Virus record (IMG/VR): IMGVR_UViG_3300045970_000109
Location: 1 to 52,201 of that record
Direction: 5' to 3' (one strand)
Source of the DNA: a virus
DNA: 52,201 nucleotides
This document shows positions 17,819 to 48,425 of this stretch, piece by piece (positions within the stretch are counted from its first letter, which is position 1; each line of letters begins with the position of its first letter). The notes beneath the pieces were generated by a model. The model was not told the DNA's origin and ran no database searches. It saw only the letters and a list, made by a program, of their open reading frames with translations. A program made the translations under genes and the position numbers.

Positions 17819-18250
17819 ATGAAGAAACAGGCAGTAAAACCAAAGACTAAGTTGTTAACTAACTCTCTAGTTACTACCGGAAGAAGTCAAGGTGAGGAAA
17901 TCATTATTGCCTTATTGAGGGTGGCGTTCCCAGGACTTAAGATCGAAAGAAACGATAAGTCTGTTTTAGGCAGGCAAGAAATTGATATTCACCTTGTGGA
18001 CTATAAGATTGCTATCGAATGCGATGGAATCACTCATTCCAAGCCTATTTATGGGCAAAAGCGGTTTGAGGAGTCTGTAGCAAGGGATATTAAAAAGGAA
18101 GCCCGTCTTGCTGAATTGGGCTTCCTATTATATCGGGTAGATATCGGTGAAGTGGAAAAGGAAAAGTTGTATTCTTTTATCAAGAACTATATGAATACCA
18201 ACCTAATACCACAATTGAAAGAAGTTATCGTAAAGCGAGTTCCTTCTTGA
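17819..18250 (+). CDS. Vsr-like (PD-(D/E)XK) homing endonuclease
   Basis: 143 residues from the ATG at 17819; a TTG at 17801 is in frame but less likely. The core GRQEIDIHLVDYKIAIECDG followed by ITHSKPIYGQKRFEES is the very-short-patch-repair/DUF559-type nuclease fold used by some free-standing phage homing endonucleases. The same D-I-x-x-x-x-Y/L-K-x-A core recurs in the protein at 26659. It is on the plus strand, opposite all its neighbours, and its 3' end overlaps the next minus-strand gene by 26 bases. Confidence 0.82.
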   Translation: MKKQAVKPKTKLLTNSLVTTGRSQGEEIIIALLRVAFPGLKIERNDKSVLGRQEIDIHLVDYKIAIECDGITHSKPIYGQKRFEESVARDIKKEARLAELGFLLYRVDIGEVEKEKLYSFIKNYMNTNLIPQLKEVIVKRVPS

Positions 18251-19211
18251 CATACGACATCTGAGTAGACTTATACCAGTTGTCTAGATAGTCCATGTCA
18301 ATGTTCTCCTGAAGAGTGCTATTTGGCATTGAGTTATCCATAAGAAGGTTATAACCCACTTCCAACAGCGTTTGGGCCATCTCAAACGTACAAGCCTCAT
18401 TGAATCTAATGTCTCGTAAGGCACTTCTTACTGGTTCAGGTCTTGGGAAAACTAATTCTCCTGTAGTTAACAGTTCGTTTGCTTCGTCAATAATACGAAG
18501 AGCGTTATACATAGCTTTGCGATCAAAAGCACCACCTTCGGCAGCTTTCTTAGCTCGCTCTCCATAACGACTAATCATCGTTTCTATACGACTCTTCCAC
18601 TCATTGAATGGAACTAAACACTCAAACTGTTTATCAAGAATCTTGTAATAAGTAACAGGCTGACCGCCACTGTTAATCTTTTCGCCCCTCGTTATCAGAG
18701 TTGGATACTGCTCACATATCTTAGGAAGACCTACTGATGCATATTTACCATCAGTATAATCTTCACCAGTAGTGTCAGTAGTGACTGAATGGTATTTAGC
18801 CCAATAAATCATATCATCTTTGATAGCTCGGAGCATATTAAGAGAATTACCCTTTTCAGAATAAACCCTTGCCTGGGTCTTTGCATAATCTGCAAAGGGA
18901 GTGATGTTCTTACTCACCAGACAGTGTTTATTCGCACGGAGTTCTTCCCATACTGGGGAAGTCTCTATGATAAACTCCTTTGGCGTAAATAACATCTCTA
19001 TAGCGTTGGTTTGCTGTTGACCTAACAACAAGGCAAACCTTTTCAAACTCATGTGTTCAGTATCAGGGTCATAGGTGCGGAAACAATCATCAGCACCCGT
19101 AATCAGCTCTGACAGAGAGTGTGCGAAGACAACTTTATAGTCCCGGTCCGATTTTTCATAGTTGGTTCCATATAAGTGTGAGCCATGCAATGTTTGTACT
19201 ACAACCTTCAC
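18225..19211 (-). CDS. COG3541-like nucleotidyltransferase
   Basis: 328 residues starting MKVVVQTLHGSHLYGT followed by NYEKSDRDYK: the GS...G...SDxD pattern of pol-beta-fold predicted nucleotidyltransferases often found in phages. The helical C-terminal half contains KAMYNALRIIDEANELL. The substrate is unknown. The gene starts where the GIY-YIG gene ends (four shared bases). Confidence 0.82.
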   Translation of the reverse strand: MKVVVQTLHGSHLYGTNYEKSDRDYKVVFAHSLSELITGADDCFRTYDPDTEHMSLKRFALLLGQQQTNAIEMLFTPKEFIIETSPVWEELRANKHCLVSKNITPFADYAKTQARVYSEKGNSLNMLRAIKDDMIYWAKYHSVTTDTTGEDYTDGKYASVGLPKICEQYPTLITRGEKINSGGQPVTYYKILDKQFECLVPFNEWKSRIETMISRYGERAKKAAEGGAFDRKAMYNALRIIDEANELLTTGELVFPRPEPVRSALRDIRFNEACTFEMAQTLLEVGYNLLMDNSMPNSTLQENIDMDYLDNWYKSTQMSYVKKELALR

Positions 19212-27650: not shown

Positions 27651-28241
27651 TTATAACATTTTGATATTACGGTGATTGTTCATACTGAAATAATCATGCA
27701 TCACAGCAACTGCTGTAATACTGTTATTCATATCAGGCTCTCGCCAGTCAGTATGGTAATTCCAGTTATGAGAACCTTTGTAGTAGAACCTTCTAGTAAT
27801 TTCATCGAAGGACCTAGCATACTTATCAGGCTCTGTTTGTAAAAGAACTAAGGTTCCATTTGTCCAAGGTGCAAAGGGGTGTTCCTTTAAGAACTGTGCA
27901 GCTGCGTGTGCTGATTGGACAGCTTTCTGTGACTCTGATAGTTCGTGGTCACAAATGATATACAGCTTCTTCGCTCCTGGATTGTCAAAGTAGGTCTTCC
28001 ATGAATCAATGCGCTCCCTAAGTTGAGCATTCTTATCAGTCGATATTCTGCACTGAAGTTTGTTTGGATTCTTGGAAGGTGTTTCAATAGGACCCTTGTG
28101 CGTTCTATGCATACCTCTTAGCTCACTCATTGCAATGTGCAATGCTCTGTAACGAAGTGTATCATGTCCTGCAAGGGTCTTTAAAAGAAGCTTAGCTTTG
28201 TTCCAAGCTTCCTTTTGTTCGGGTGTAAAAGTAGTCGCCAT
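27651..28241 (-). CDS. Peptidyl-tRNA hydrolase 2-like protein
   Basis: 196 residues from MATTFTPEQKEAW at 28241, chosen for the GGAG six bases ahead. The C-terminal half KKLYIICDHELSESQKAVQS followed by AHAAAQFLKEHPF matches the strand and Q-x-x-HA signature of Pth2. Pth2 frees tRNA from peptidyl-tRNA. The match is by eye only, and a general Pth2-fold protein of other function is possible. Confidence 0.6.
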   Translation of the reverse strand: MATTFTPEQKEAWNKAKLLLKTLAGHDTLRYRALHIAMSELRGMHRTHKGPIETPSKNPNKLQCRISTDKNAQLRERIDSWKTYFDNPGAKKLYIICDHELSESQKAVQSAHAAAQFLKEHPFAPWTNGTLVLLQTEPDKYARSFDEITRRFYYKGSHNWNYHTDWREPDMNNSITAVAVMHDYFSMNNHRNIKML

Positions 28242-28354
28242 GTTATTCTCCATGAAATAGGCAGTTATTAATCAAGTCAATAACGGCTATTATCATGGTG
28301 GTCTAGTTGATACCTAGAGCTTCTTCATAGGATACTCTCCTTATACATAATTGT

Positions 28355-28365: not shown

Positions 28366-28441
28366 TGGTGGCTCTGGCGGTAGTCGAAACCGCGATAAAA
28401 GGTTTAGAGTCTCCTGCTTTGGGCCGCTAAGCTACAGAGCC
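28366..28441 (-). tRNA. Amber-suppressor-type tRNA (CTA anticodon)
   Basis: Acceptor GGCTCTG/CAGAGCC, D stem GCTT/AAGC, T arm GCGGT-TTCGACT-ACCGC and encoded CCA are regular. The anticodon loop reads CTCTAAA with U33 and A37, giving CTA, which reads UAG. The anticodon stem GGAGA/CCTTT is weak (two G-U pairs and an A-C mismatch), so the tRNA may be degenerate or have special decoding. Confidence 0.7.
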
Positions 28442-31992: not shown

Positions 31993-32277
31993 CTATTGGG
32001 TATCAACCTCTACTTTGTATTCATGCATCTCACATTCACCATGCTCTGTCCAACCAGAATAAGCTCGTTTACCACCTTGAGCTATCTCGCCCATACAAAT
32101 CCACCCTTTAGGCTCATTGCAATGGCATTTCTGCCTAGGGTCTTTTGCTGGTAACTTTACTGTTGTACAGTGGTGAAAGTCCTGAATGTGGTGTTTGCAG
32201 TTACAGCAGCAGTTATGAGGTCTGGTATTAAGATCTTCGATACAACGATGTGCCTCTACAATCTCACACGGTTTCAT
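31993..32277 (-). CDS. Cys/His-rich zinc-binding protein, 94 aa
   Basis: CCCNCKHH at residues 23-30 and later CHC, CMG and HGECEMHEY give many potential ligands. The spacing is not that of a named finger. It overlaps the RNA ligase gene's end by 14 bases, so the two are coupled. Confidence 0.72.
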   Translation of the reverse strand: MKPCEIVEAHRCIEDLNTRPHNCCCNCKHHIQDFHHCTTVKLPAKDPRQKCHCNEPKGWICMGEIAQGGKRAYSGWTEHGECEMHEYKVEVDTQ

Positions 32278-33631
32278 GATCGGTATCTACCTCTTCTTCA
32301 TCTGCCAAGCTCTGTTCAGATTCCAAGTCAACTAGACCCTTATCCAGATCCTTGGTTTCCTTATCCAAGAAGGCAAAGTTCTTCAGTTTATAAGCAGGGC
32401 ACTCAAAAAGGCCGTCTACTCTTACGACGATACCTTCTTCCCAAACATCACCACTATTCAGCGGACATTTTCTATCACGCATGTAATCGGCTTCCAACTT
32501 AGCCAAGAAGTTTTGATTCCAATGCTGCTCAAGAGGAATGTCAGGGCAGTAATCCTTAGCTTTACCATAGTAGAACTCCGTTACATGTTTGATTCCGTAT
32601 TTATTGCAATATTCCTTGATCTGCGGCCAGGAGAACTCAATCACCTGTCCCGCAGCATTAGTAGAGGTAATGCGATAAACGTAAACCTCATGTTCGTTAG
32701 GGCGTGTGCCATAGTGGTAGCCTTTTTGGATCCAAGCTCCTGTTGGAAGCTGACCTACAGCTTCGCCGTATAGAGTGATACCATCCTGAATGCTACTCTT
32801 AAGGTAATCTGCGATCACGCCCCACAAGTCAAAGTTGTAAAAGCCGCTATTAACAGTTGTGTTAATATACTTGTTCTTAACAACAGTACGACTTGAATAG
32901 ATGACATCGTATTTGGTATTATTAAAAGCTGTTGGAACGAACTTGGTAAAGATGGACTTCCACCAGGGGAGTGGCTCCTTAGTAAGAACCTTACCAACAA
33001 CCCAAGAAGTACCATGAATCTTGTTAGTAATGCTGATCATGTCCTCTGGATTGAGCTTGTGTGCATTGCGGCGAAGGTTTTCGGTGTCAATGTGCAGTCT
33101 GAACTGATTCTCCACCAGACGATCAAACTTATTGACCTTCTTCTTATCCTTCTGCTTCTGTGTGCCAGACTCTTTTACGCGAATGACATACTTGCAGCAG
33201 ATTTCATGCCCGAGGATCTTATCGAAGTCAACACCCTTAACGATGTAGGGTTCAAGTTCCTTAGCGCGGGTGATATCAATCATGATGTAATTGAGACAGG
33301 CAATAGGCATGAACAAGCCTTCCGACTTATGACCACGGAACTTCATGGTCTTAATGCGCCTGTTTTCTTCAAAGTAACCCTTCTTGGTTACATCCCTATT
33401 GAGTTCAGCCTTACGATAAAGGTTGTTCTCGCCAACAAAATCATGACTAAGCTGTGTCTCAGCAGGGAAGAACAAACCAAGATCACCAACCTTGGTATCT
33501 TTCCCAACAATTACGCTGTTACCAAAGATAATAGCAGCGACAACATTGTCACAATTTTCCAGCTCAACTAGCTTTTCAATCTCAACCAGTGTGGCGCAGT
33601 AGTTAGGATTGATTGGTTTTTCAAGGCTCAT
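32264..33631 (-). CDS. RNA ligase, DraRnl/Rnl5-type (TIGR02306-like)
   Basis: 455 residues. Nucleotidyltransferase motifs are in order: motif I NKIHGTSWVVGK (Lys accepts AMP), motif III TLYGEAVGQLP, motif IV WEEGIVVRVDG, motif V YKLKNF. The N-terminal domain LVEIEKLVELENCDNV with IVGKDTKVGDLGLFF fits the Rnl5 OB domain. The enzyme seals RNA 3'-OH/5'-phosphate nicks with ATP. Neighbouring Gly/Thr tRNAs, and a kinase and phosphatases further on, suggest RNA repair. Confidence 0.92.
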   Translation of the reverse strand: MSLEKPINPNYCATLVEIEKLVELENCDNVVAAIIFGNSVIVGKDTKVGDLGLFFPAETQLSHDFVGENNLYRKAELNRDVTKKGYFEENRRIKTMKFRGHKSEGLFMPIACLNYIMIDITRAKELEPYIVKGVDFDKILGHEICCKYVIRVKESGTQKQKDKKKVNKFDRLVENQFRLHIDTENLRRNAHKLNPEDMISITNKIHGTSWVVGKVLTKEPLPWWKSIFTKFVPTAFNNTKYDVIYSSRTVVKNKYINTTVNSGFYNFDLWGVIADYLKSSIQDGITLYGEAVGQLPTGAWIQKGYHYGTRPNEHEVYVYRITSTNAAGQVIEFSWPQIKEYCNKYGIKHVTEFYYGKAKDYCPDIPLEQHWNQNFLAKLEADYMRDRKCPLNSGDVWEEGIVVRVDGLFECPAYKLKNFAFLDKETKDLDKGLVDLESEQSLADEEEVDTDHETV

Positions 33632-36684: not shown

Positions 36685-38166
36685 TTACAGTGAAAAGGGC
36701 GCTACAGCTTCCTTCACAGGAGCGTAGCGTGGGTTGTCAAGGACTTCCATCAGCATCTCAATTGGAGATACTGAGGTGGCGTTAACCGCCTTCTGGAAGA
36801 TAGAAGGAGAGCATCCTGAAACAAGATACACACCCTTCTCGTCCTTGGTAACTGGAGCTTGCTGGCCTCGGCTAGCAACATTCCAGAACACCACCTTAGG
36901 CAGCTCGTAACCAGCATCTGCAAACTTACGCTTAGCGGATTCAAAGTTAGTCAAGCTGCTGTCTCGCATACAACGATCAAACTCCATGTCGGAGATGATG
37001 AAGATGCTGTCAGGCAGTTCGGACTGAGGAACCTTATTGGAAACTGCAGCGTTCAACACAAGGTCAAACACAGCTTCCATGTTAGTGTTCATGTCCCAAT
37101 TAGCCTGAGAAAGATTATTGATACGCTCACGAAGAGTAGTATCAACAAGGTTCTGAAGCTGAGGACGCTCAGAGAAGGTAATGAACTGATCCTTGAAGCA
37201 ACCCTTATTGCGCTCGGCAATGTAGATAGCAAGAGAGATACAGACCTCCATAGGAGTTCCGCTCATGCTACCAGACACGTCAGCAACAACAAGAGCATTC
37301 TTGTCGGTATCAGCATAGTTAGGCAACTGCTTCCACAGAGCCTCAAGAGTCAGGTCGACTCCACTGGAAGCTCCCCAACCACCATGAATACCATACTTGT
37401 GCAGGATGTCATAGGGATAGAGAACTGCAGAGTTGATCTTCACTTCACCCTTAACAGCGGCTTCAATAAACTGCTGATACCGTGTGGCATCATGCTTAGC
37501 GAAAGCCTGCTTGTAGATGAGAGAAGCCCTGGAAGGAACAGAAGAGTAGTTCACCTTAACCCACTCGTTAGCAGACATCTTACGCTCAACGATGTCAATG
37601 TGCTTACGAAGAGCAGACAACTTCTGCCTGTATTCCTTTTCAGTCAGGCCGAGAATCTTAGCCCACTTACGACCAAGAGCCTGAGTCTCCTTAGAGGAAG
37701 TGTTGATAGAAGGCATCCACTTGGCAAGCAAGGAGATAGACTCGCTATCCTTCATGTGGTCGGAGTCAATGTTCAGCTGAGCCTTGATAAGCTCTCTGAC
37801 AATAGGACTATCGGTATATTCGAGAATGTCATCCCAACGACCATACTCAGATACCATGTTAACCACGGTATCGAAGATCAAAGGGCGTTCATTCTTCAGG
37901 ATAGTTAGGCAATTACGGAAACTATCCCGTTCTCCCTGCCCACCGCGAGGATCACGCAAGTAGAAAAGAACTCGCGTGGCCAGTCCTGCGTCAGAGGACA
38001 ATGCCTTATGGAAAAGGTTATCAATCTCAGTCTTCTGACCGCGCTTGGCAGGAGCGTGATAGAAGAAGTCCAGGATGTTATCCATCGTGGAGCTGTGAGT
38101 TACAGCATCATTCTCTGTACGAGTCATGTTGCTGGTCTGTGCGAGAGCCTGTTGGAAGAGATTCAT
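36685..38166 (-). CDS. Ro60-like RNA-binding protein (TROVE/DUF2828 plus VWA)
   Basis: 493 residues from MNLFQQALAQTS at 38166 (AAAGGA ahead). The N-terminal half is helical-repeat-like with FYLRDPRGGQGERDSFRN and GRWDDILEY, as in TROVE/DUF2828 proteins. The C-terminal VWA domain has MIDAS motifs ALVVADVSGSMSG, the Thr in DMNTNMEA and FIISDMEFD. Ro60 proteins bind misfolded and Y RNAs in their ring. A tRNA-mimic RNA on the same strand (38294-38405) lies just upstream. A palindrome (ACGGTT/AACCGT) at 38187-38199 overlaps the leader and may regulate. Confidence 0.82.
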   Translation of the reverse strand: MNLFQQALAQTSNMTRTENDAVTHSSTMDNILDFFYHAPAKRGQKTEIDNLFHKALSSDAGLATRVLFYLRDPRGGQGERDSFRNCLTILKNERPLIFDTVVNMVSEYGRWDDILEYTDSPIVRELIKAQLNIDSDHMKDSESISLLAKWMPSINTSSKETQALGRKWAKILGLTEKEYRQKLSALRKHIDIVERKMSANEWVKVNYSSVPSRASLIYKQAFAKHDATRYQQFIEAAVKGEVKINSAVLYPYDILHKYGIHGGWGASSGVDLTLEALWKQLPNYADTDKNALVVADVSGSMSGTPMEVCISLAIYIAERNKGCFKDQFITFSERPQLQNLVDTTLRERINNLSQANWDMNTNMEAVFDLVLNAAVSNKVPQSELPDSIFIISDMEFDRCMRDSSLTNFESAKRKFADAGYELPKVVFWNVASRGQQAPVTKDEKGVYLVSGCSPSIFQKAVNATSVSPIEMLMEVLDNPRYAPVKEAVAPFSL

Positions 38167-38186
38167 GGTATTTCCTTTCAAGATAC

Positions 38187-38199: not shown

Positions 38200-38293
38200 G
38201 ATGGTGGGATTGCTGTTAGTATCTTAGTAATGAAATCTAGAGGCCTTCGGGCTTTAACCGTTGAGTTGCTGCATGCCTCTATAAATGAATGAC

Positions 38294-38405
38294 AAGGGAT
38301 GTTATTTAGTCGGACGCTCTACCAGCTGAGCTACAGTGGGTATGAACCACCAGTGAGATTCGAACTCACGACACTCTGATTATTTTTAGTTGCTGTTAAT
38401 CCCTT
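38294..38405 (-). ncRNA. YrlA-like Y RNA candidate (circularly permuted tRNA mimic)
   Basis: In transcript order: closing strand AAGGGAT (38405-38399), anticodon-like strand TCAGA, T arm GTGAG-TTCGAAT-CTCAC (38369-38353), an acceptor-like hairpin TGGTGG / CCCACTG capped by a short loop, TA, D arm GCTC..GG..GAGC (38331-38316), anticodon-like strand TCCGA, and ATCCCTT (38300-38294) pairing with the first strand. So tRNA landmarks occur 3' half first, with no free CCA end, as reported for bacterial YrlA RNAs. The neighbouring gene downstream is Ro60-like. A decayed tRNA is the alternative. Confidence 0.65.
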
Positions 38406-38741
38406 TGAATAGCTGTAATGTTTGTAACCAAGAGAACTTTACCGAGTAAAAGGAGGTTGGTTTGTAGTTGCTGCTGTTCTCTTTCTGTTACATTGGGTTT
38501 GTATCAAGACACAAATTGGTTGGGCCAATCACTCCTGGTAACAAGGATGCCCGAAGGCTAGCTTTGTTGGTTGGTTGCGGTGTATGTCTTTGGTAATGCC
38601 TAGGCGCAGCTTGGTAAGTTCAAGCAGACTAGCGATTCGGGGCTCGCCACACCTTGCATAGCTCTTTCGAGCAAGACAGTTTTGTTGCAGTACACGCCTT
38701 TGGACTAGTCATATCGGATCGACAGGGTTAAAACCGAAATG
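38406..38741. other. Non-coding leader between CGATAYA site and Y-like RNA
   Basis: About 330 bases without an ORF. It contains repeats of GCAGCAACT and a GCCCGAAGGC that could pair with its complement near 38240. It could be part of a longer precursor of the Y-like RNA. I see no tRNA in it. Confidence 0.4.
38710..38716 (-). promoter_or_regulatory. CGATAYA motif ahead of Y-RNA region
   Basis: The minus strand reads GATCCGATATGACTAG. It would start a transcript near 38700 that runs through the Y-like RNA into the Ro60-like gene. Confidence 0.35.
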
Positions 38742-41294: not shown

Positions 41295-41519
41295 TCATGG
41301 AACCTCTATAATCTCAAAATGTTCTCTAAGGACGGGAATACTTATATTATTTTGTTCTGTCCATCCTCGAAAAGAAAATCTAAAATCAATTTGATTATCT
41401 TTTACTCTATCTAAAAAATTAATAAGGTCTTCTTTTTTATAATACTTAAGACCTTCTGGCTTAAGAACATATTCTCCAGTTGGAAGATATAAAAGTTCAT
41501 GATTTATAACTTTTCCCAT
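41295..41519 (-). CDS. LYLPTGE-family small protein, 74 aa
   Basis: HELLYLPTGEYVLKPEGL near the N-terminus and NNISIPVLREHFEIIEVP at the end: a minimal member of the family. It overlaps the kinase gene by 16 bases. Confidence 0.78.
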   Translation of the reverse strand: MGKVINHELLYLPTGEYVLKPEGLKYYKKEDLINFLDRVKDNQIDFRFSFRGWTEQNNISIPVLREHFEIIEVP

Positions 41520-41881
41520 CGGTCCCTCATCTTCTTGATGTGTTCCTCAGAAACACCATGAATGTTGGGATAGTTACCAGTCATCTCAATGACCTTAATA
41601 GGAATGTTAAGTTCCTTGGCCATATCAAAGTAGGCTTGCATCTCCCACTTCTTCGTGAAGGTATTACTGACAGCAACAGAGTTGCCAGCAAGGAGGTTCT
41701 TCCTAACCTCATCCTGGCACCACTTGTGAGCCTTACCAAGCAGTGAGCCATCCCACTTATACTCTCCGCTCAGGCTGAAATACATATCAGTCTCCAAGTG
41801 AGTGTATTCGGTGAGGGTCTTAGCAAAGGTAGACTTGCCACTACCAGGAAGACCACGAATAAGAAGGATGTTGACAGCCAT
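41504..41881 (-). CDS. PNK-like P-loop kinase
   Basis: 125 residues. LIRGLPGSGKSTFAKTL is Walker A; HLETDMYFSLSGEY provides the acidic residue, and a lid-like RKNLLAGNSVAVSNTFTKK follows. This is the AAA_33/T4 PNK-type kinase fold, which puts phosphate on 5'-OH nucleic-acid ends or small substrates. It is nine bases from a metallophosphoesterase gene, so kinase and phosphatase may form an end-healing pair with the RNA ligase. Confidence 0.8.
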   Translation of the reverse strand: MAVNILLIRGLPGSGKSTFAKTLTEYTHLETDMYFSLSGEYKWDGSLLGKAHKWCQDEVRKNLLAGNSVAVSNTFTKKWEMQAYFDMAKELNIPIKVIEMTGNYPNIHGVSEEHIKKMRDRWEKL

Positions 41882-41889
41882 GTTGGCTC

Positions 41890-42516
41890 CTAAGAAATAG
41901 GACGGAATTTGAGGATCTTAGCTACTTCAAGCAGGCTGACTGGTTTCATGTCCCAGGCATCAACACCGATATGAAGGATGTTTTCTGCTGTAAGTTTGTT
42001 TTCAGAGTGTGTATGCCCATGGAGAAGATACTCATCATCGGCAACGATGGGCCGCAAATGGCTATACCGCTGGTCGTATTCATTTGAACGTGGATCATCA
42101 GTATTGGCTGGCGGAAAATGACAGAGGTTCACCTTAGAGTCATAGACAGACTCACAGGTAATATCAGACAGCTTGATGCATCCATGATAGATAGCAGCCA
42201 TACCATATTTGAGGTATAGATCTGTCATCTGCTGGAACTTATCACCCTTGCATTCTTCAGCAAGCCAGTCATGGTTACCAGCAACAAGGATCTTGATACC
42301 ATTCAGCCTAGGTAAGAACTTAGGAACGTTCTCAAACTTCTTACCCATGACAACATCACCAAGGAAGATACAGATATCCATTGGTGCTACAACCTTGTTG
42401 TAGTTGTTGATAAGGCCTTCATTCATGTCATCCACGGTAGTCCAAGGACGATTAGGCATAATCTCTAATGCCCTGAGATGACCGAGATGTAGATCTGAAG
42501 TGAGGTAGAGAGCCAT
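41890..42516 (-). CDS. Calcineurin-like metallophosphoesterase
   Basis: 208 residues. SDLHLGH, FLGDVV, AGNHDWL, LCHFPP and LHGHTHS are the five metallophosphoesterase blocks. It is of the short single-domain type seen in phages and near PNK-like kinases. It may be the phosphatase of an end-healing pair; other phosphoester substrates are possible. Confidence 0.92.
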   Translation of the reverse strand: MALYLTSDLHLGHLRALEIMPNRPWTTVDDMNEGLINNYNKVVAPMDICIFLGDVVMGKKFENVPKFLPRLNGIKILVAGNHDWLAEECKGDKFQQMTDLYLKYGMAAIYHGCIKLSDITCESVYDSKVNLCHFPPANTDDPRSNEYDQRYSHLRPIVADDEYLLHGHTHSENKLTAENILHIGVDAWDMKPVSLLEVAKILKFRPIS

Positions 42517-44897: not shown

Positions 44898-44990
44898 TGG
44901 TAGGCGCGTAGGGAATCGAACCCTAACAAGGGGCTAATCTGGCCCAGTGGAGTTTATAAGTCTCCCTATGCTACCATACATCACACGCCT
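44898..44990 (-). tRNA. Class II tRNA, anticodon read as TAT (Ile-like, uncertain)
   Basis: Acceptor AGGCGTG/CGCGCCT, T arm TAGGG-TTCGATT-CCCTA, encoded CCA and a long variable arm (GGGC/GCCC). The best anticodon arm is GGAGA-CTTATAA-ACTCC with one A-A mismatch, giving TAT. A long arm is not expected for Ile, so identity is open. Confidence 0.7.
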
Positions 44991-47439: not shown

Positions 47440-47616
47440 CTATATGTGAAACGAGTTCTTGGGAACATAAGCATTACCTCTTGCTTCGTAGGCAACATCT
47501 TGAACTGCTTCAGGATAGTCTCCACCACCTGAATACACTTCTAAGTCACCATGCTGAGCAATCTTATCCTTGAGGATTTGAATCAAGGCAGAGGCTTTGA
47601 TACCGTGCATGAACAT
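47440..47616 (-). CDS. Small conserved-type phage protein, 58 aa
   Basis: MFMHGIKASALIQILKDKIA then QHGDLEVYSGGGDYPEAVQD. The LIxxLxxxIxxHGDLxVYxxGGD pattern is common in short phage proteins of unknown role. CGAGG lies ahead of the start. Confidence 0.7.
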   Translation of the reverse strand: MFMHGIKASALIQILKDKIAQHGDLEVYSGGGDYPEAVQDVAYEARGNAYVPKNSFHI

Positions 47617-47766
47617 GTGAACCTCGAAAAGAAACTAGACCCCAATTTCATTTTTGTATTTCGGAAACAATAAACCGACTCGGGATAGTCAATACTAGCG
47701 GCTACCCGAGAATTCACTGGTCATTGGGAGTTGGTAGCTGTATGGGTCTAAAAGGGTTAAAAGAAC

Positions 47767-47892
47767 TGGTGCGCCTACCCGGACTCGAACCGGGACGGAT
47801 TACTCCGACAGATTTTGAACAGGCTTTTGACAATCCACCGAACACCATCTCAGCGATAAGTCTGTTGTGTCTACCAATTCCACCATAGGCGC
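47767..47892 (-). tRNA. tRNA-Leu with 41-nt insertion in anticodon loop
   Basis: Acceptor GCGCCTA/TAGGCGC, Leu-type D arm GTGGAATTGGTAGACAC, anticodon stem ACAGA/TCTGT, class II variable arm CGGA/TCCG, T arm CCCGG-TTCGAGT-CCGGG and encoded CCA are all intact. Between the stem halves lie 48 bases instead of 7. Removal of 41 bases would leave CTCAAAA (CAA) or, shifted, CTTAAAA (TAA). The insert ends with AAAAGCCTGTT, a near copy of the 3' anticodon strand AAAATCTGT. Confidence 0.82.
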
Positions 47893-47913
47893 AGGGTTGA
47901 CTCTGATAATATG

Positions 47914-47920
47914 TATATCG
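47914..47920 (-). promoter_or_regulatory. CGATAYA motif upstream of tRNA-Leu
   Basis: The minus strand reads GCGATATACATATTATC, 22-28 bases ahead of the tRNA 5' end. Confidence 0.35.
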
Positions 47921-47940
47921 CTTCGTCTGCCGTTTACTCC

Positions 47941-47950
47941 AATTAAATAT
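47941..47950 (+). promoter_or_regulatory. AATTAANTAT element before HNH gene
   Basis: AATTAAATAT followed by AGGAG and the ATG at 47961. Confidence 0.45.
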
Positions 47951-47960
47951 AGGAGTAATT

Positions 47961-48425
47961 ATGAGCAACCAACGCGGCTATACTGATCAAGATGTTATTA
48001 ATGCTGTCGCATCTTCAACCTCCAAGAGACAGGTATTAGCTAAGTTAGGGTTAGTAGAGGCTGGAGGCAATTATAAATGCTTACAGCTTACTTTTGAAAG
48101 ACTTAAAGTAGATACTAGCCATTTTACAGGTAAGTTGTGGAACAAAGGGAAAATATTACCATCGAAACGACAAGTTAGTGAATACCTTTCAAATACTAAG
48201 TCTATACAGTCACACAAACTAAGGATTAGACTTATTAAAGAGGGCATATTTGAAGCTAAATGTTATAGCTGTCAAAATGTATTCTGGTTAGATAAACCTA
48301 TCGCATTAGAGTTGGAGCATATCAATGGTGATCACTCTGATAATACCTTGAGCAATCTAACACTGTTATGCCCCAACTGCCATGCACAGACTAAGACTTA
48401 TCGCGGAAAGAACAAGAAGTCTTAA
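47961..48425 (+). CDS. HNH homing endonuclease
   Basis: 154 residues. The N-terminal half resembles a small HTH (TDQDVINAVASSTSKRQVLA). The C-terminal half has CYSC, then LELEHINGDHSDNTLSNLTL and LCPNCHAQT, the classical HNH with zinc CxxC pairs. Plus strand, next to tRNA-Leu; its end overlaps the minus-strand gene by four bases. Confidence 0.92.
   Translation: MSNQRGYTDQDVINAVASSTSKRQVLAKLGLVEAGGNYKCLQLTFERLKVDTSHFTGKLWNKGKILPSKRQVSEYLSNTKSIQSHKLRIRLIKEGIFEAKCYSCQNVFWLDKPIALELEHINGDHSDNTLSNLTLLCPNCHAQTKTYRGKNKKS

Follow-up and report, generated by a model that had tools for sequence, protein, structure and literature searches.

What becomes of a viral tRNA whose gene encodes an anticodon loop of 48 nt? 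The question is raised by a virus record from IMG/VR, 52,201 bp in length, which is referred to here as the window. An earlier note on this DNA had claimed a 41-nt insertion in the anticodon loop of a class II tRNA-Leu with all of its arms intact, and both parts of the claim hold. The gene lies at 47892-47767 on the minus strand, is 126 nt long and encodes ACCA. Its acceptor (7/7), T (5/5) and anticodon (5/5) stems are fully paired, the variable arm is of class II, and the anticodon loop reads CTT, then 41 nt, then AAAA. The parts of the gene are as follows.

47858..47892, minus strand: 5' exon of tRNA-Leu, 35 nt, with the 5' strand of the acceptor stem, the D arm, the anticodon-stem strand ACAGA and CUU.
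47817..47857, minus strand: 41-nt insert in the anticodon loop, a presumed intron (register ambiguous by 1-2 nt).
47767..47816, minus strand: 3' exon of tRNA-Leu, 50 nt, with AAAA, the anticodon-stem strand UCUGU, the variable and T arms, the 3' strand of the acceptor stem and ACCA.

Removal of the 41 nt leaves the loop CUUAAAA with the anticodon UAA. The junctions CTT/AAAA and CTTA/AAA both give CTTAAAA (UAA), hence the ambiguity of 1-2 nt; the alternative CT/CAAAA, which is the register printed by ARAGORN, gives the anticodon CAA. ARAGORN missed the gene when run without its intron option and, with that option, called it as 'i(33,41)', which confirms the insertion. The Rfam tRNA model matches the gene with 45.2 bits and spans both halves. 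Our reading is that the gene specifies a tRNA-Leu(UAA) precursor from which a 41-nt intron would be cut by nucleases, the halves then being joined by an RNA ligase of the phage. On the sequence comparisons described here we give this a probability of about 0.57.

Pattern scans of the viral_contigs collection for tRNA-Leu genes with a lengthened span returned 31, 20, 42 and 69 stretches, many of them false. Structural filtering left 25 distinct tRNA-Leu(UAA) genes, that of the window included, in which an insert lies between CTT and AAAA (L054 is an exception, the 3' part of its loop being TTAA). The acceptor stem has 7/7 pairs and the T stem 5/5 in all 25, CCA is encoded in 19, and the anticodon stem has 5/5 pairs in 22 and 4/5 in three. 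Among 116 distinct uninterrupted controls the corresponding figures are 113 for a complete acceptor stem, 116 for the T stem and 73 for CCA, with 5/5 anticodon-stem pairs in 86 and 4/5 in 30; the interrupted genes are no worse, and since they were partly selected on their stems these counts show integrity and are not an unbiased measure. Without the insert, the loop has 7 nt, among them U33 and a valid anticodon. The window gene has the same intact exons, the insert between CUU and AAAA and the canonical spliced loop.

Several inserts recur. One is nearly identical in five metagenomes (L056, L073, L074, L076 and L077), and others are common to separate metagenomes (L058/L081, L067/L080, L069/L079 and L050/L055), which argues against assembly chimeras. 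Nor is the interruption confined to leucine. A scan for class I tRNAs returned at least 120 stretches, with isotypes assigned by reading the spliced loops. Among the matches listed are interrupted tRNAs for Lys (L101, L110 and L137), Ile (UAU in L096; GAU in L226 and L237), Arg UCU (L094), Asn GUU (L136 and L106) and Thr UGU (L106 and probably also L075), together with a CAU tRNA (L206) and probably a Val UAC tRNA (L075). The L075 record apparently contains three interrupted tRNAs; there are two in the record shared by L082 and L206 and two in that of L106. Insert sizes across the set run from 24 to 116 nt. The structural scanner called no gene in 2.0 Mb of Markov-shuffled sequence and one spurious gene in 119 control phage loci (1.10 Mb). 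In the bacterial genome_contigs collection there were no matches to a Leu-insert pattern narrower than the viral one or to the type A motif described below; this is weak evidence of absence, because of that narrower first pattern and because there was no positive control there.

Other candidates were put aside. Most of the first Leu scan (31 stretches) consisted of tRNA-like RNAs with degenerate anticodon arms and was dropped, as were the half-gene duplications L017, L027 and L049. In L033, L041, L043, L044, L046, L051-L053, L063 and L070 a normal tRNA-Leu is followed by a second T-arm-like sequence; in L041, L044, L046, L051 and L052 this comes about 15 nt after the tRNA-Leu, and the five records share one sequence over the stretch shown. 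Of the class I matches, about half a dozen (L175, L164, L179, L162, L145 and perhaps L128 and L187) are Y-RNA-like and were set aside. L040, L194, L139, L162 and L064/L072 are uncertain and stand outside the count of clear cases.

Two conserved types stand out among the inserts. Judged by its sequence, a type B insert is a nested tRNA or a tRNA-like minihelix, with the 5' end of its acceptor and its CCA 3' end exactly on the junctions. In L110 a tRNA-Asn (Rfam, 71.8 bits) is nested in a tRNA-Lys, and in L094 a tRNA-Phe lies within a tRNA-Arg. The inserts of L069, L096 and L101 comprise an acceptor stem and T arm; those of L025, L045 and L058 comprise an acceptor-like stem followed by ACCA. When 18 chosen loops were compared with shuffles, 11 had six or seven pairs of acceptor-like 7-bp ends plus CCA at the register that gives a canonical loop (L025, L045, L058, L069, L094, L096, L101, L106 twice, L110 and L137). 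The CCA is exact in nine of these and has one mismatch in two, and only 0-11 of 3000 shuffles did as well. The other seven were negative: the window, L056 (334/3000), L040, L194, L010, L048 and L054 (36). The cut would fall mostly at 34/35, at 35/36 in L101 and L137, and at 36/37 in L110; in L045 it is placed at 35/36, and 34/35 gives an indistinguishable product. The 116-nt nested tRNA within the tRNA-Thr at L106:9989-10175 seems itself to hold a hairpin of 9-10 bp, perhaps an insert within an insert.

Type A inserts are hairpins. The helix is exactly 10 bp in 14 of 16 inserts (in Leu, Asn and CAU tRNAs; L010 to L062) and 11 or 12 bp in the others, usually with flanks of 4-5 nt on the 5' side and 3 nt on the 3' side. 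Folding of the hairpin inserts against shuffles gave z values from -2.0 to -6.4. In an alignment of nine sequences the hairpin cells are 100% paired, seven of the ten pairs show double changes, and the structure taken as a whole scores 0.652 for covariation, compared with 0.205 for shuffled sequences, the signal being lost when the partners are slid; this count left out five sequences of the first alignment, at least two of which MAFFT had shifted by one column. When the surroundings of type A tRNAs were compared for a nuclease gene in common, they contained kinases, ligases and phosphoesterases as well as GIY-YIG and HNH endonucleases, and no splicing-nuclease candidate; the regions compared had been picked around ligase genes, so that ligase linkage there is biased. 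An 80-nt insert in a probable tRNA-Val(UAC) (L075:866-1017) seemingly contains three short hairpins and resembles neither type.

The window insert also belongs to neither. Its longest helix is 8 bp, a length matched by 118 of 500 shuffles, with flanks of 1 and 18 nt in place of the type A arrangement (a hairpin of about 10 bp, 4-5 nt and 3 nt), and its fold is no better than that of shuffles (z = -0.02). Against type B it shows three of seven acceptor-like pairs and the end TTCA, and 2773 of 3000 shuffles equal it. Only its site and the integrity of the exons place it in the interrupted-Leu set. There is no other copy of the exact insert in viral_contigs, no match to the tRNA region or to the right half in INPHARED, no relative of the window among plasmids, and no relative of a neighbouring protein in viral_contigs or phages. 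The earlier note had described the end of the insert as repeating the 3' anticodon strand, allowing an alternative stem to form. Neither feature exceeds chance: 1737 of 5000 shuffles scored as high for the repeat and 962 of 5000 as well for the stem, the pair probabilities of which are about 0.1-0.2 in the unconstrained ensemble. The suggestion of a switch depended on that stem and goes with it.

An orphan insert of this kind, devoid of significant structure, is what would be expected if the gene had been inactivated by a recent insertion or recombination event, the tRNA being unused and the host supplying tRNA-Leu(UAA). UUA makes up just 16.5% of the leucine codons in the window, so the tRNA may be dispensable. 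Nevertheless, the stems and CCA of the window gene are all intact, and a random disruption is unlikely to strike the exact site used by 24 other lineages; we regard inactivation as unlikely. The proposal of a minimal intron is the best supported of the options put forward earlier, since in dozens of other phage tRNAs an interruption lies at this position or close to it, the exons being intact, and some inserts have processing ends on the junctions. The window insert itself, which is without processing ends, counts against it. That tRNAs of at least two dozen other virus lineages are split at this spot or nearby points to a probable, undescribed route of cutting and rejoining. A literature search found no earlier report of such phage tRNAs; a preprint may exist.

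The window encodes an RNA ligase that could rejoin the halves, together with other genes linked to RNA repair.

32264..33631, minus strand: RNA ligase of Rnl2 type, the candidate rejoining enzyme (PF09414, E 2.4e-9; phrog_968, E 1.1e-74).
41504..41881, minus strand: P-loop kinase, possibly for end healing (partial match to phrog_505, E 1.9e-9, profile positions 3-112 of 295).
41890..42516, minus strand: metallophosphoesterase adjoining the kinase (members of its BLAST cluster occur in eight other interrupted records).
18225..19211, minus strand: nucleotidyltransferase of the RlaP type found in RNA-repair loci (PF10127; phrog_388).

The window has the 5'-3' RNA ligase of a T4-type repair set; its P-loop protein matches the kinase half only of phrog_505, and metallophosphoesterases are encoded separately. 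Ligases of family PF09414 are present in 11 of 32 interrupted records and those of PF09511 in 11 of 39. Among records of at least 40 kb, one or the other occurs in 15 of 26 interrupted records and in seven of 38 controls (Fisher p 0.003), the controls being 36 uninterrupted records of that size plus L033 and L070, both with an uninterrupted tRNA-Leu; L040 (345 kb) was left out, and the 26 include the uncertain L139 record, which has no ligase match. By size, the counts are 5/14 against 2/27 at 40-100 kb (p 0.04), 10/12 against 5/11 at 100 kb or more (p 0.09, not significant alone) and 9/9 against 5/9 at 130 kb or more. Collapsing records by shared insert gives 13/21 against 7/38. The 11 interrupted records of at least 40 kb with no ligase match may be fragments. 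The polynucleotide-kinase-like phrog_505 is likewise enriched (16/26 against 10/38, p 0.009). In L082, 22 bp separate the end of the interrupted tRNA-Leu from an Rnl1 open reading frame downstream of it, and a kinase gene comes next. The Rnl1 of this region (L082:51-3046) lies in two open reading frames (189-776 and 1528-2109), as if itself split, ahead of the polynucleotide-kinase-like gene. RtcB was found in none of 32 interrupted records, with a match in the E. coli positive control; the host could therefore supply RtcB. The tRNA intron endonuclease of EndA type (PF01974) was absent from all 39 phage records searched and matched in archaeal control genomes. The earlier note had linked the insert to the ligase set of the phage, a link that stands as statistical enrichment and not as a causal role.

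The same enzymes would suit phages that face anticodon nucleases, and the earlier note had offered a decoy as one option: the intron would stay in place, and the enlarged loop of a decoy or resistant tRNA would absorb or evade host anticodon nucleases. This leaves unexplained why nested-tRNA ends fall exactly at canonical-loop junctions and why at least six different outer isotypes have restored anticodons after removal of the insert. We keep it as a rival and consider it improbable.

Excision followed by ligation, our preferred reading, could proceed as follows. In the window the intron most likely lies between U34 and A35 and would be excised after transcription by nucleases and not by a ribozyme. 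The tRNA halves would stay together through their own stems until a 5'-3' RNA ligase of the phage joined them, in the window the Rnl2-type enzyme, with the kinase and phosphoesterase if needed. The joining chemistry would be that used by T4 on anticodon-cleaved tRNA. For type B inserts, in the simplest reading, the inner element would be released at its 5' end by RNase P and, after CCA, by tRNA 3' processing. RNase P and tRNA 3' processing leave a 3'-OH and a 5'-phosphate on the outer halves, which is the substrate of Rnl1 and Rnl2. We infer splicing itself, the identity of the nuclease for the nested-tRNA inserts and the role of the ligase as joiner from sequence. More tentatively, and at slightly less than even odds, many tailed phages may splice tRNAs by a pathway of their own. 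RNase P and 3' processing would free the nested tRNA and a T4-type ligase would join the outer halves directly, such that one transcript yields two tRNAs; the hairpin inserts would be cut by a further, putative nuclease able to gauge a helix length of some 10 bp.

Two further genes of the window bear on its RNA biology.

47961..48425, plus strand: HNH endonuclease, separated from the tRNA by 69 bp (match to PF01844 narrowly under the cut-off, E 0.00086).
36685..38181, minus strand: DUF2828/DUF7788 protein (phrog_850, 'RNA-binding protein'), which we take to be TROVE-like.

Genes of one HNH family occur no more than about 70 bp from the interrupted tRNA-Leu genes of the window, of L056 (also L077) and of L071. 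Three distinct interrupted Leu genes have such a gene within 100 bp, and none of 119 control loci has one within 700 bp (p 0.005). The neighbour is suggestive and could reflect homing into tRNA-Leu; the cases are too few to claim this, and the main reading is independent of it.

The TROVE-like gene raises the idea that the Leu gene specifies a Y-RNA-like mimic of tRNA, bound by that protein, and not a tRNA; tRNA-like RNAs do adjoin such genes (for example L385:21209-21318). However, the window has a separate YrlA-like RNA at 38290-38406 on the minus strand, 109 bp upstream of the TROVE-like gene. This sub-threshold Rfam match (31.8 bits, E 0.0046) is probably a phage Y RNA, and YrlA gives no match on the Leu gene. 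In addition, the class II arm of the Leu gene, its CCA and the valid anticodon it would have once spliced speak against a mimic, and several type A records are without a TROVE-like protein in the regions compared. A mimic is therefore very improbable. Tangentially, a number of odd RNAs (L385:21209-21318, L069:792-910, L054:380-496, L175, L164, L179, L162 and L145) have normal D and T arms and a long odd middle; in several, CTGCAA or CAGCAA comes after a short hairpin. These RNAs are possibly Y RNAs. Two of the odd tRNA-like RNAs adjoin TROVE-like genes, in Synechococcus phage B23 (b23_0341) and in L054. Phage B23, whose whole genome was read, is the closest to the window in its TROVE-like protein and one of the closest in its ligase. 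Its tRNA-Leu(UAA) has no interruption, and it carries an odd 110-nt 'tRNA-Undet' that is Y-RNA-like in look.

Some other features of translation in the window were noted. A tRNA with the anticodon CUA at 28366-28441 (minus strand; 'Pyl' in ARAGORN) is likely to be an amber suppressor, and TAG is the stop codon of ten of the 40 open reading frames that are 150 aa or longer. The tRNA-Ile(UAU) at 44898-44990 (minus strand) is 93 nt long with a long variable arm, and the tRNA-Sec model scores best on it. The protein encoded at 27651-28253 (minus strand), which presumably resembles peptidyl-tRNA hydrolase 2, has a weak match to phrog_3668 ('hydrolase') and a second, to phrog_1866, in common with L061:3919-4419.

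Least credible is a self-splicing (group I or II) or archaeal-type bulge-helix-bulge intron: PMC4033280 presents tRNA-Leu(UAA) as a classic host of group I introns, but it also gives a core of about 100 nt as their requirement, for which 41 nt is too small, as the earlier note had argued; no Rfam intron family matches 47600-48000 up to E 5, none of the 39 records has an EndA-type gene, and the 4-bp central helix of a bulge-helix-bulge (3 nt, 4 bp, 3 nt) is absent over all six registers from the window (at most three of four pairs) and from 14 of 17 other inserts, so that three of 18 reach four pairs, in one register.

Recurrent tiny introns in phage tRNAs, some of them nested tRNAs, would add another route by which a tRNA is interrupted and restored. 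If this is true, phage RNA ligases would gain a routine substrate beyond damage repair, and the repair enzymes known from T4 would also be splicing enzymes. For the nested genes, RNase P, a tRNA 3' processing enzyme and one ligase would suffice to test the mechanism directly in vitro. Standard tRNA finders overlook such genes when run without an intron option, as the default ARAGORN run on the window illustrates.

Known systems offer partial parallels. In cyanobacteria and plastids, the group I introns of tRNA-Leu(UAA) share with the phage inserts the host tRNA and the site in the anticodon loop, which they interrupt after U34. Unlike them, the phage inserts measure 24-116 nt and have neither a catalytic core nor an Rfam intron match, and some are whole tRNAs. 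The enzyme-spliced tRNA introns of archaea and eukaryotes are also small inserts in the anticodon loop, removed by the logic of endonuclease and ligase; they lie at 37/38, whereas the phage site is mostly 34/35. Archaeal tRNA introns carry a bulge-helix-bulge, according to PMC4090602, a motif that the window insert lacks; here the interrupted tRNAs are phage genes, and the 39 records searched hold no EndA-type gene.

In T4, Pnkp and Rnl1 mend tRNA-Lys that has been cut in the anticodon loop, as set out in PMC3400036. The likeness lies in the heal-and-seal enzymes of the phage, homologous ligase and kinase genes being present in interrupted records. The break in T4 is damage inflicted by the host PrrC, whereas here the gap would be an insert encoded in the phage tRNA gene itself. 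Permuted and split tRNA genes of algae and archaea likewise have a tRNA assembled from separated pieces, and in permuted tRNAs the true ends are made by RNase P and tRNase Z (PMC4090602). In the phage genes, by contrast, the exons keep their collinear order, and what lies between them can be a complete second tRNA or a minihelix.
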